A stretch of 41,603 nt of DNA from Deltaproteobacteria bacterium (lineage in GTDB: Bacteria > Desulfobacterota > GWC2-55-46), in contig JACRCH010000117.1 in assembly GCA_016219115.1 (NCBI GenBank), positions 1-41,603 of the forward strand, in the 5' to 3' direction. The translations under genes and the position numbers were made by a program. Every line of letters begins with the position of its first letter. Position 1 is the stretch's first letter. Positions 1 through 35,034 of this stretch are shown piece after piece. A model generated the notes under the pieces. It saw nothing but the letters and a program-made list of their open reading frames with translations, did not search any database and was not told where the DNA came from.

Positions 1-62
1 CACCCCTACCCTCCCCCATCGATGGGGAGGGTTTCAAGCTACAGGGAATTTTGTTATTAAAA
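1..62 (-). repeat. V-type repeat terminus (truncated by the window start)
   Basis: This is one end of the dispersed V repeat seen more fully at 23076-23260 and 34119-34308. It holds the H1 hairpin (arms 8-16 and 24-32) followed by the conserved end, roughly CAAGCTACAGGGAATTTTG then TTATTAAAAA. Compared with the H1 stems at 23122-23146 and 34239-34263, the second base pair is C-G instead of T-A, so pairing is kept. In the window orientation it matches the 34 kb copy. It ends about 140 bases before the start chosen for the first gene. Confidence 0.75.
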
Positions 63-5141: not shown

Positions 5142-5538
5142 CATGAACCACCCCGCAAGCCTTGCCAGCGGGGTACCCGTTGGGAGGTCTGTTTTTATAT
5201 ACGCGGCAAGCCGCGCTTAATGTCTCACAATGGGATCTAAAATCCCTCGCCTTACAGGCGAAAACTTCCAGTGCGTCTATGTGGTCATCAACTTTCCGGT
5301 TGTCCACGCAGAGCCGGAAAATTGCGTCTTCTAATGTAAAAGGCAGGGATATTCGGGTTCCCCTCTTTACTAAAGAGGGGTTAGGGGAGATTATCTTAAA
5401 ACAGCCGACTTATAATCCCCCTTTGTCCCCCTTTAGGAAAGGGGGAAATTCAGTCGGGCTTTCAGCCGACAAGAACTTTTGAACCTACCGCCTTCCAGGC
5501 GGTAGTGGTTCAGTTCAACCCGAAGGAAATATTAAAAA
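5142..5538 (-). repeat. U-type modular repeat with a 293-bp internal block
   Basis: 5142-5220 matches 25127-25204 and the reverse complement of about 34888-34966. It carries the AACCACCCCGC...GCGGGG hairpin and the GCGGCAAGCCGC palindrome, ending GCGCTTAA. 5514-5538 (TTCAACCCGAAGGAAATATT) is the other edge of U. Between them lies a 293-bp block (5221-5513) not found elsewhere in the window. The block contains hairpins CCCCTCTTT/AAAGAGGGG near 5360, CCCCCTTT/AAAGGGGG near 5430 and CTACCGCC/GGCGGTAG near 5490. The stretch also opens a 106-codon reading frame (5162-5482), rejected because it lies entirely in repeat sequence. No convincing gene lies between 5121 and 5714. Confidence 0.8.
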
Positions 5539-23059: not shown

Positions 23060-23075
23060 CGGAGGCTGTCTTTTT

Positions 23076-23288
23076 TAATCACCAAATTCCCTGTAGCTTG
23101 CCAGCAGGGTTTCCTTATAAAATCCTCCCCCTCGACGGGGGAGGATAGGGTGGTGGTGAAAACAGGTTTTCACCACCACCCGCTTCCCGTTGCATCGGAA
23201 GAGCGCAACGGGAGCCCAGCCCTCCCATCAAGGGAGGGCTGGGGTTAAGGAGATACCCGGCTGGCAAGGCTTGCGGGGTGGTTCATCG
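23076..23288 (-). repeat. V-type repeat: four consecutive hairpins, nadK-recN gap
   Basis: It is the inverted counterpart of about 34119-34308. In order it has the terminus AATCACCAAATTCCCTGTAG and then four stem-loops. H1 is a 10-bp stem, 23122-23131 with 23137-23146. H2 is a 16-bp stem with a two-base loop, 23148-23163 with 23166-23181. H3 is CCCGTTGC with GCAACGGG. H4 is a 12-bp stem, 23215-23226 with 23232-23243. The last 30 bases are the shared GGCTTGCGGGGTGGTTCATCGG-type end. It fills almost all of the 302 bases between nadK and recN; no gene or clear promoter is visible there. Confidence 0.85.
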
Positions 23289-25126: not shown

Positions 25127-25228
25127 ATGAACCACCCCGCAAGCCTTGCTAGCGGGGTATCCGTTGGAAAATCTGTTTTTATATGCGCGGCAAGCCGCGC
25201 TTAATTCAACTCGAAGGAAATATTAAAA
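25127..25228 (-). repeat. U-type repeat without internal block
   Basis: 25127-25204 matches 5142-5220 closely. The next base, 25205, begins the other U edge (TTCAACTCGAAGGAAATATT). At this joint, copies at 33956-34067 and 34776-34887 carry 112 bases and the copy at 5221-5513 carries 293 bases; here there is none. It contains the GCGGCAAGCCGC palindrome and the CCCCGC/GCGGGG hairpin. Confidence 0.85.
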
Positions 25229-25248: not shown

Positions 25249-25405
25249 TAATCACAAAATTCCCTGTAGCTTGCTATCAGGGTGGTTCATTTACCCGTAG
25301 CTTTGCCGAAGTGCGGGGGTGAAAAAAATTTTCACCTCCCCTTAGTCCCCTCCCTTGACGGGAGGGGAGATTTTGCTTCCCCGCGGTAATCCGCGCTTAA
25401 TCTTC
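25249..25405. repeat. V-type repeat mosaic before the argA-like gene
   Basis: 25249-25275 is the V terminus (TAATCACAAAATTCCCTGTA), in the orientation of 23076. It is followed, in the opposite orientation, by H2-like (25318-25325 with 25329-25336) and H1-like (25347-25354 with 25360-25367) hairpins. A degraded GCGG...CCGCGCTTAATCTT lies at 25381-25404. The 335-base gap between recN and the next gene is almost wholly repeat; no gene is seen. Confidence 0.7.
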
Positions 25406-33900: not shown

Positions 33901-33930
33901 ACCCGGCAGAGACGAGTGGCGTTTCCCGGG

Positions 33931-34118
33931 GTTTTAATATTTCCTTCGGGTTGAATGGGTGTGCCACTCCGCAATCCCGTCGCTTTAGCGGCGGGTCAAG
34001 GCTGGCAAATATAGATGATTTTTCCCCACCATCAAAATTCTCTGTCATTCATGGCGGAGAATTTTAATTAAGCGCGGCTTGCCGCGCATATAAAAACAGA
34101 GCTCCCTTTGGGTACCAC
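33931..34118 (+). repeat. U-type repeat, first copy, with 112-bp internal block
   Basis: It is near-identical to 34751-34938: four differences in the first 170 bases and no gaps, offset exactly 820 bases. It starts TTTTAATATTTCCTTCGGG. The internal block 33956-34067 contains CCCGTCGC/GCGGCGGG and AAAATTCTC/GAGAATTTT hairpins. The end carries the GCGCGGC/GCCGCGC palindrome. A 77-codon minus-strand frame inside it is repeat-encoded and not accepted as a gene. Confidence 0.9.
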
Positions 34119-34308
34119 GCTGCTTGCGGCTGGGTATCTCCTTAAGCCCAGCCCTCCCTTGATTGCGAGGGCTGGGCTCCCGTTGCGCTCTTCCGATGCA
34201 ACGGGAAGCGGGGAGGGTGAAAACATTTTTTCACCCCCATCCTCCCCCGTCGAGGGGGAGGATTTTACAAGGAAACCCTATAGCAAGCTAGAGGGAATTT
34301 TGTGATTA
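34119..34308 (+). repeat. V-type repeat, directly upstream of the HEPN gene
   Basis: It is the inverted counterpart of 23076-23260, roughly 85% alike by eye. H4 (GCCCAGCCCTC with GAGGGCTGGGC), H3 (CCCGTTGC with GCAACGGG), H2 (GGGTGAAAA with TTTTCACCC) and H1 (34239-34248 with 34254-34263) appear in order. The conserved terminus GAGGGAATTTTGTGATTA ends at 34308, twenty bases before the HEPN start codon. Confidence 0.88.
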
Positions 34309-34327: not shown

Positions 34328-34750
34328 ATGGAGGTTCTTGCTAAAGAGGCGGACAGGTGGCTCAGGCAGGGCGAGTACGACCTTAAGGTTGCCGAATGGA
34401 ACCAGCAGGGCGGCTTTTTCGCCCCGGCGTGTTTCTGGGCGCAGCAGGCGGCCGCAAAATGCCTCAGGGGCTTTCTCTACATGAACAGGGAGGACGCCCG
34501 CGAGACCCGCTCCGTCGTGGACCTTCTGGACAGGGCCATAACCTACGAGGAGGAGTTCAGGAACTTCGTCGGGGTCTCAACGAGCCTGGACATATACTAC
34601 AAGACCTCGCGTTTTCCGGACGCCCTGCCCGGCGGGATCCCCGCCGAGGTCATCAGCGAGAAGGACTCAAGGGACGCGATAAAACAGGCCGGAGACATAC
34701 TGGCGGTCGTCGAGAAAAAAAGAAAGGCGTATCTGCCGGACACGCTGTAG
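34328..34750 (+). CDS. Orphan HEPN-domain protein lacking histidine
   Basis: This 140-residue protein has the HEPN four-helix pattern: WLRQGEYDLKVAEW, FFAPACFWAQQAAAKCLRGFL, and the C-terminal YYKTSRFPD and EVISEKDSRDAIKQAGDIL. HEPN proteins are often RNases of toxin-antitoxin or phage-defence pairs, using an R-x4-6-H motif. Where relatives have THSL, this one reads TRSVVDLL, and the whole protein has no histidine, so classical HEPN RNase activity is unlikely. No MNT nucleotidyltransferase partner lies beside it. AGGAGG precedes the ATG. The gene is flanked exactly by a V repeat (ending 34308) and a U repeat (starting 34751, the base after its stop). It could be a binding or scaffold subunit, or a decaying toxin. 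Confidence 0.85.
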   Translation: MEVLAKEADRWLRQGEYDLKVAEWNQQGGFFAPACFWAQQAAAKCLRGFLYMNREDARETRSVVDLLDRAITYEEEFRNFVGVSTSLDIYYKTSRFPDALPGGIPAEVISEKDSRDAIKQAGDILAVVEKKRKAYLPDTL

Positions 34751-34966
34751 GTTTTGATATTTCCTTCGGGTTGAGTGGGTGTGCCACTCCGCAATCCCGT
34801 CGCTTTAGCGGCGGGTCAAGGCTGGCAAATATAGATGATTTTTCCCCACCATCAAAATTCTCTGTCATTCATGGCGGAGAATTTTAATCAAGCGCGGCTT
34901 GCCGCGCATATAAATACAGATTTCCCCTGGGTACCCCGCCAGCCAAGCTGCCGGGTGGTTCATCGG
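34751..34966 (+). repeat. U-type repeat, second copy, directly after the HEPN gene
   Basis: This is a direct repeat of 33931-34118. It begins the base after the HEPN stop codon, includes the 112-base block at 34776-34887 and ends with the CCCGCCAGCC...GGGTGGTTCATCGG hairpin end. The prepilin peptidase gene follows. Confidence 0.9.
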
Positions 34967-35034
34967 GGTTTTTGCTCTTTAACGGTCTGAAAACCCCGGA
35001 GGCTTGGAGACCGGGGAGGGTGTGTCTTAAAATC

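Follow-up and report, generated by a model that had tools for sequence, protein, structure and literature searches.

Element V, a new non-coding PATE-like element with insertion 3' of TTAA and co-varying terminal hairpins in a deltaproteobacterial genome

Element V and its copies

The window, i.e. the whole stretch of 41,603 nt analyzed here, belongs to contig JACRCH010000117.1 of assembly GCA_016219115.1 (Deltaproteobacteria bacterium) and carries a full copy of a non-coding, dispersed element of 208 nt, here called V (Table 1). The interior of V is formed by four consecutive hairpins, H1 to H4, and one further hairpin lies outside these at each end (H0 and H5). An earlier note on this DNA had described the four hairpins, which lie at 23122-23243, and all of them are present; the inverted repeats of H1 (10 bp), H2 (16 bp with a two-base loop) and H4 (12 bp) are exact, while H3, given there as 8 bp, reads as 9 bp. 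The span proposed in the note, 23076-23260, was too short: it ends inside H5, and the end hairpins had not been seen.

The window's own genome (G000) is a 2.3-Mb assembly of 89% completeness; the sole congeneric genome compared (G001) is 92% complete. Including these two, 59 genomes were used for the distribution of V. Copies of the V core were counted with a pattern for the H3 core, the reversed pattern serving as control. G000 holds 97 sites (77 of them exact; control 0) and G001 holds 48, and none were found in the 57 other relatives. All named contigs with the V core are from Deltaproteobacteria bacterium isolate NC_groundwater_1643, which appears from matching positions to be G001.

A 231-base query against G000 gave 290 candidates at first look, of which 40 were scored as copies, with identities of 82-100%. 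In the alignment of these 40 copies the common left end reads TCACAAAATTCCCTGTAGC and includes H0, and the common right end reads ...ATACCCCGG..CCGGGGTGGTTCAT and includes H5. On the left, conservation breaks off at TTAA or just ahead of it, on the right it does so after TTCAT, and the similarity among 217 right ends stops after ...GGTTCAT. The ends outnumber the cores, with 116 left ends (up to 3 mismatches; control 0) and 228 right ends (up to 1 mismatch; control 2). Regarding 36 left-end-like sites in 377 kb, the distances from left to right end, with the same ends throughout, were 41-42, 99-107, 136, 173 and 202-239 nt; at 11 more left-end-like sites in the same 377 kb the right end is absent or more than 800 nt away. 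The forms of 41-42 nt are V ends with the interior deleted. In one of them (L137, 41 nt) the left arm of H0 and the right arm of H5 are joined through a GCTTGCT common to both, a junction such as repeat-mediated deletion of the core would be expected to leave.

Table 1. Coordinates and properties of element V, its parts and its other copies in the window
Feature	Position	Strand	Basis or remark
TTAA retained in left flank, putative target in the host and cleavage site on the left (CL)	23075..23078	+	empty-site junctions L253 and L162
Element V, full copy	23079..23286	+	ends from empty sites and limit of similarity
AATT, candidate left guide (GL), 5' of H0	23085..23088	+	82/100 anchored left ends
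H0, left terminal hairpin, CCCTGTAGC..GC.CAGGG	23089..23109	+	sequence; arms co-vary
H1, internal hairpin	23122..23146	+	perfect inverted repeat, arms 23122-23131/23137-23146, 5-nt loop; no co-variation
H2, internal hairpin	23148..23181	+	perfect, arms 23148-23163/23166-23181; these matched arms only in window copy and L017; no co-variation
H3, internal hairpin, best conserved V block	23185..23213	+	98.5% match to consensus (40 copies); arms 23185-23193/23205-23213, read by eye
H4, internal hairpin, full length only in derived class	23215..23243	+	perfect, arms 23215-23226/23232-23243; 29/99 G000 and 0/27 G001 copies
GATA, candidate right guide (GR)	23252..23255	+	62/80 anchored right ends
H5, right terminal hairpin	23256..23278	+	arms co-vary
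TCAT, putative right cleavage site (CR), last V bases	23283..23286	+	similarity limit; empty site L253
Second V copy	34112..34305	-	intact left end preceded by TTAA; broken right end joined to repeat U
V copy, left end to H1	1..55	-	cut off by contig start
Terminal-only form, 42 nt	25249..25290	+	the two ends directly fused, interior absent

V is mostly intergenic: as judged with a crude gene caller, 75 of the 84 G000 copies used for gene context are clear of called ORFs and nine overlap them. Other repeats were noted as well. Two repeats of 182 nt at 33930-34111 and 34750-34931 of the window are 96% identical and consist of repeat W followed by repeat U. Repeat W begins with TATTTCCTTCGGGTTGA after TTTTAA and ends with GGCGGAGAATTTTAAT; repeat U has a GCGCGGCTTGCCGCG hairpin, and U-type repeats end in several places in the same GTGGTTCAT as V. 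U repeats at 5143-5220 and 25127-25205 of the window (both -) have the right end of V and a different left hairpin. A recurrent module, CCTGGCGTACGG / TGCCGACCGCACGG, adjoins V in G001 (L051, L063 and others). The short ORF at 34328-34750 of the window presumably resembles a HEPN-domain protein.

Internal hairpins

The V region of the window folds far better than shuffled sequences (z -11.4; 0 of 200 shuffles as good), and so does the 34-kb copy (z -8.5). Co-variation was assessed by comparing 5' and 3' arms as real partners with arms re-dealt at random (2000 permutations); this was chosen over a covariance model because the alignment of the GC-rich V repeats is poor. Distinct hairpins were tested as well, since kinship among copies can inflate permutation tests. 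The arm tests drew on 126 copies, 99 from G000 and 27 from G001 (in which 48 core sites had been counted); copies were left out if they departed from the arm patterns or were located too close to a contig end, which gave 99 copies for H1, 89 for H2 and 105 for H4. As H4 copies with a GCAATC loop are ambiguous in register, H4 was also classed by motif.

None of these three stems showed co-variation. Real partners formed 8.131 pairs in H1 (8.113 when permuted; 595 of 2000 permutations as good), 8.517 in H2 (8.509; 881 of 2000) and 7.210 in H4 (7.203; 937 of 2000), the power of the H4 test being low because there is scarcely any variation in its 5' arm. The result was the same for all three when distinct combinations were used. 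The compensatory change claimed in the earlier note, which should have appeared as significant co-variation in a large set of copies, is thus not evidence of selection on H1, H2 or H4. Its observation on H1 was correct as far as it went, with T-A at 23123/23145 and 34240/34262 and C-G at 9/31. T-A is nevertheless the rare state: the pair is C-G in 47 of the 99 copies, T.G in 43, T-A in 3, C.A in 2 and something else in 4, so that both sides vary independently. The H4 of the 34-kb copy, said to differ in sequence and still pair, has the same arms as the window copy and differs only at the inner end and in the loop.

Among V copies, that of the window is exceptionally perfect. The usual H2 carries a G.T mismatch (80/89 copies) and a T.C mismatch (67/89). 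The arms of H2 in the window (GGTGGTGGTG/CACCACCACC) are found matched in only two of the 99 G000 copies, and in a further copy (L040) the 5' arm is of the new type and the 3' arm of the old. H4 in its full form has CTGGG in the 3' arm, and four of the 27 G001 copies lacking this form end before H4; the usual 3' arm has GAGG, and the 5' arm is identical in both classes. The loop of H1 reads TCGAT in 32 copies; nine others, with unchanged arms, have ATCGA, which is exactly its reverse complement. H3 is the best conserved block, the other blocks scored in the 40 copies matching the consensus at 89-96%; its loop occurs in the variants GGAAGA and GGCTTC. From a MAFFT alignment of 119 copies, itself poor, RNAalifold predicted H3 as the sole stem.

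The matching of internal arms and the inversion of loops look like the products of template switching. Homogenization of arms in one step and inversion of the spacer are described as signatures of this process in PMC8604942 and PMC8794818. The cases described there and those in V alike match one arm to the other and invert the loop with unchanged arms; the published cases concern yeast genes and rRNA, whereas in V the changes are seen across paralogous copies. Independent events cannot be counted in V, since its copies are related by transposition. Paralogous hairpins can look compensated in the absence of selection on their fold, and comparing just two or three copies would be misleading.

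Terminal hairpins, insertion sites and strand preference

The arms of both terminal hairpins co-vary. Regarding H5, real partners formed 4.131 of 6 pairs as compared to 3.746 when permuted (107 copies; 0 of 2000 permutations as good), and with the 72 distinct hairpins one permutation in 2000 was as good. Regarding H0, none of 2000 permutations was as good with 112 copies and 79 were with the 35 distinct hairpins. An additional A-T pair could belong to the foot of H5, in which case the right guide would move by one base. The suggestion of the earlier note that the folded form matters in single-stranded DNA is supported for H0 and H5, whose arms co-vary and whose flanking tetranucleotides follow the guide rule set out below; most likely, the fold of V matters as single-stranded DNA, at the two ends.

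Empty sites were sought by comparing the flanks of 63 G000 and 6 G001 elements with the other genome, and the search was repeated with more G001 sequence. Two clean V empty sites were found, most orthologous gaps between the two genomes being scrambled by other repeats. At the first, the filled site (L021) reads GTATTTTAA/T...GGTTCAT/ACGAAAGAGG, the right flank starting with ACGAAAG, and the empty site (L253) reads TTATCTTAA/ACGAAAGAGG; the flanks are about 87% identical on both sides, and no base is duplicated. At the second, L118 (filled) and L162 (empty, GGTTAA/CCCACTATTCGC) have, as read by eye, the same TTAA junction. No target duplication was found at either site. A composite of repeats S and U (96 nt) had likewise entered after TTTTAA without duplication (L141 compared with L061). 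Among 100 anchored left ends, which include some non-elements, 64 have TTAA directly before TCAC, the background being 0.0034 per position.

The pairing of guides with cleavage sites was scored as guide position 1 with site position 2, guide 2 with site 1 and guide 4 with site 4, the last of these being the third pair of the IS608 rule. The V consensus agrees with this rule at three of three positions on the left (AATT with TTAA) and three of three on the right (GATA with TCAT). Taken singly, 66 of 100 left ends and 53 of 80 right ends agree with it when every anchored end is counted, with the misses and the noise; other ends carry TAAA, TTTA, TTAT or TCAA. For IS608 itself, PMC5934647 describes insertion 3' of TTAC and guides AAAG and GAAT, located 5' of the hairpins, that pair with TTAC and TCAA, left-guide A+16 pairing with target T-3 and A+17 with T-4.

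The top strand of V lies on the G-rich strand in 58 of the 83 G000 copies used for strand skew. The preference persisted once gene strand, as judged with the crude gene caller, had been corrected for (intercept 0.0159, se 0.0043), and the local concordance was weak (24 to 13, p 0.049). With the strand judged by G-richness and not by replication direction, this preference would be as expected of insertion into the lagging-strand template, the mode named in PMC6006769 for IS608 and ISDra2.

Relationship of V to known mobile elements

V is a new PATE-like element, with insertion 3' of TTAA, no duplication, co-varying end hairpins, guide-like tetranucleotides and terminal-only forms. We consider it probable that V is mobile but non-autonomous and belongs to the IS200/IS605 type, as a palindrome-associated transposable element (PATE). 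An IS200-type transposase (TnpA; HUH, Y1) supplied in trans would bind both end hairpins in the top strand while this is single-stranded, as part of the lagging-strand template. Through base pairing, AATT would select TTAA and GATA would select TCAT for cleavage, and a circle of single-stranded DNA would then be inserted 3' of another TTAA. H1 to H4 would be passenger DNA built of GC-rich palindromes, whose arms are matched and whose loops are flipped now and then by template switching during replication; the impression of compensatory change would then stem from such mutations and not from selection for an RNA fold.

Four of the five PATE features tested are found in V; for the fifth, ends related to an IS605-type transposon, the right-end hairpins next to the tnpA of G020 (below) are a candidate. 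Like the PATEs of Haloquadratum walsbyi described in PMC3119063, V has palindromes near both ends, no terminal inverted repeats and no target duplication, is too short to encode a transposase (202-239 nt in its full forms), has its 5' palindrome farther from the end than its 3' palindrome, and includes nested elements. Terminal-only versions measure 52 bp in those PATEs and 41-42 in V. Insertions occurred in both, although nearly all tnpA copies of the host are broken in the case described in PMC3119063 and none was seen in the case of V. Unlike these PATEs, V has a bacterial host, four extra internal hairpins and the target TTAA, and a full-length parent element was not found in the same genome. 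With IS608 and the IS200/IS605 elements, as described in PMC5934647, V shares insertion 3' of a tetranucleotide that remains in the left flank (TTAC in IS608), a right end that closes in the cleavage tetranucleotide (TCAA in IS608, TCAT in V), and guides 5' of subterminal hairpins with the same pairing. V differs in having no internal tnpA or tnpB, no enzyme seen in the genome, and hairpin sequences that vary widely among copies.

Y1_Tnp was found in neither G000 nor G001, although it is present in 32 of the 59 genomes, and relatives of the TnpA of another genome of the same family (G020) were likewise found in neither. Both assemblies are incomplete, and repeats are easily lost from bins; the partner transposase of V was probably lost or escaped assembly. 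Genes enclosed by left and right V ends 826-3759 nt apart, considered as an autonomous partner, were ordinary-looking. In G020 an IS200-type tnpA is followed by two hairpins ending in GAGAGGTTCAT; these resemble the right ends of V and end in GGTTCAT, the comparison covering the right side. Ends of the type CCGGGG..GGTTCAT number 23 in G009, 21 in G016, 12 in G005 and 8 in G020 (reversed-pattern control 0 in each), and such family-wide ends allow a hunt for the enzyme in better assemblies. Since no IS200-type transposase was found in G000 or G001, and no REP transposase linked to V, the enzyme is inferred, and V, with no visible tnpA, is filed as working like IS200/IS605 and not as a full member. 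V is a high-copy case in a bacterium, lacking a transposase and directed to TTAA, in which the guide rule of IS608 is readable from the sequence at both ends. Literature searches found no description of V, which may still have been reported.

A shorter element, T (CTGAAAACCCCGGGG..CCGGGGAGGGTTCAT), is the one most similar to the right end of the IS200-type element in G020. T is frequent in G001 (e.g., L048, L060 and L062), occurs also in G000 (L129), and has left a remnant at about 34986-35022 of the window; at one site (L129 and L150), one species has T where the other has a V-type element.

Regarding the alternatives, it is conceivable, if unlikely, that the family-wide end set (CCGGGG..GGTTCAT) is mobilized in trans by a non-chromosomal enzyme (e.g., of a plasmid or phage) and that H3, as conserved cargo or as a site of recognition, gives the host or the element a function. 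V would then be a dispersed array of single-strand hairpins and more than a parasite.

A REP/BIME identity of V, with spread by a REP-associated tyrosine transposase (RAYT), is doubtful to a greater degree; the earlier note had likened V to these elements. V shares with the REP/BIME elements described in PMC8266576 and PMC3733652 dispersed intergenic hairpins in mosaic combinations, and is palindromic and present in many copies; moreover, REP_Tyr_transpos has matches in 40 of the 59 genomes, RAYT genes of members of the same family sit between GTAG-tagged hairpins, and one V copy (L087) holds a REP of this kind. However, V has no GTAG or CGTC tag, the feet of H0 and H5 showing AATT and GATA where GTAG would stand, and its ends differ from each other and are not inverted REP pairs. 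The RAYT expected elsewhere in the genome was not found in G000, and the one RAYT-like gene of G001 is truncated at the contig end, with a hairpin unrelated to the V ends in front of it. V is assigned to the IS200/IS605-like type of PATEs.

Multiplication of V by recombination or gene conversion between repeats, and not by transposition, would account for the strong mosaicism, in which W, U, S and a 54-nt block have recombined with V. It is nonetheless very improbable, considering the fixed ends and the clean TTAA insertions into otherwise collinear unique DNA.

A role of V as a structured RNA, or as a strand-specific element in transcripts of the host, with its four hairpins under selection for an RNA fold, is in our judgment highly improbable. 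The strong fold, the conservation of H3 and the intergenic position speak for it. Against it, the arms of H1, H2 and (at low power) H4 do not co-vary, G.T pair types are not commoner than A.C types over these stems (13 distinct types compared with 20), loops are found inverted, and V has no fixed strand relative to genes. Among the 79 copies with genes on both sides, V has the direction of both genes in 29 and the opposite direction in 23, the genes being convergent in 17 and divergent in 10 (background gaps: 142 tandem, 26 convergent and 29 divergent; crude gene caller), and a strand-specific RNA role does not fit these counts. Rfam gave no match on the window at the gathering score, and the 17 matches of a relaxed search on five loci were all far below the gathering scores.

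Finally, V is short, non-coding and dispersed as a MITE of a DDE transposon would be, an origin that has almost no probability left given that its ends form no terminal inverted repeat (5/19 positions match) and that the two clean sites lack a target duplication.

Two further hairpin types were noted in the course of the comparison. The GTAG-tagged REP inside the V copy L087 (GTAGGTTGGGTTAGCGAAGCGTAACCCAACA) is of RAYT type, although it lies in G000, where no RAYT was found. The RAYT-like gene start of G001, at L232 5086-5412, follows a hairpin of the type GGGTTCAGG..CCTGAACCC, and similar hairpins occur also in G000 (L090 and L091).
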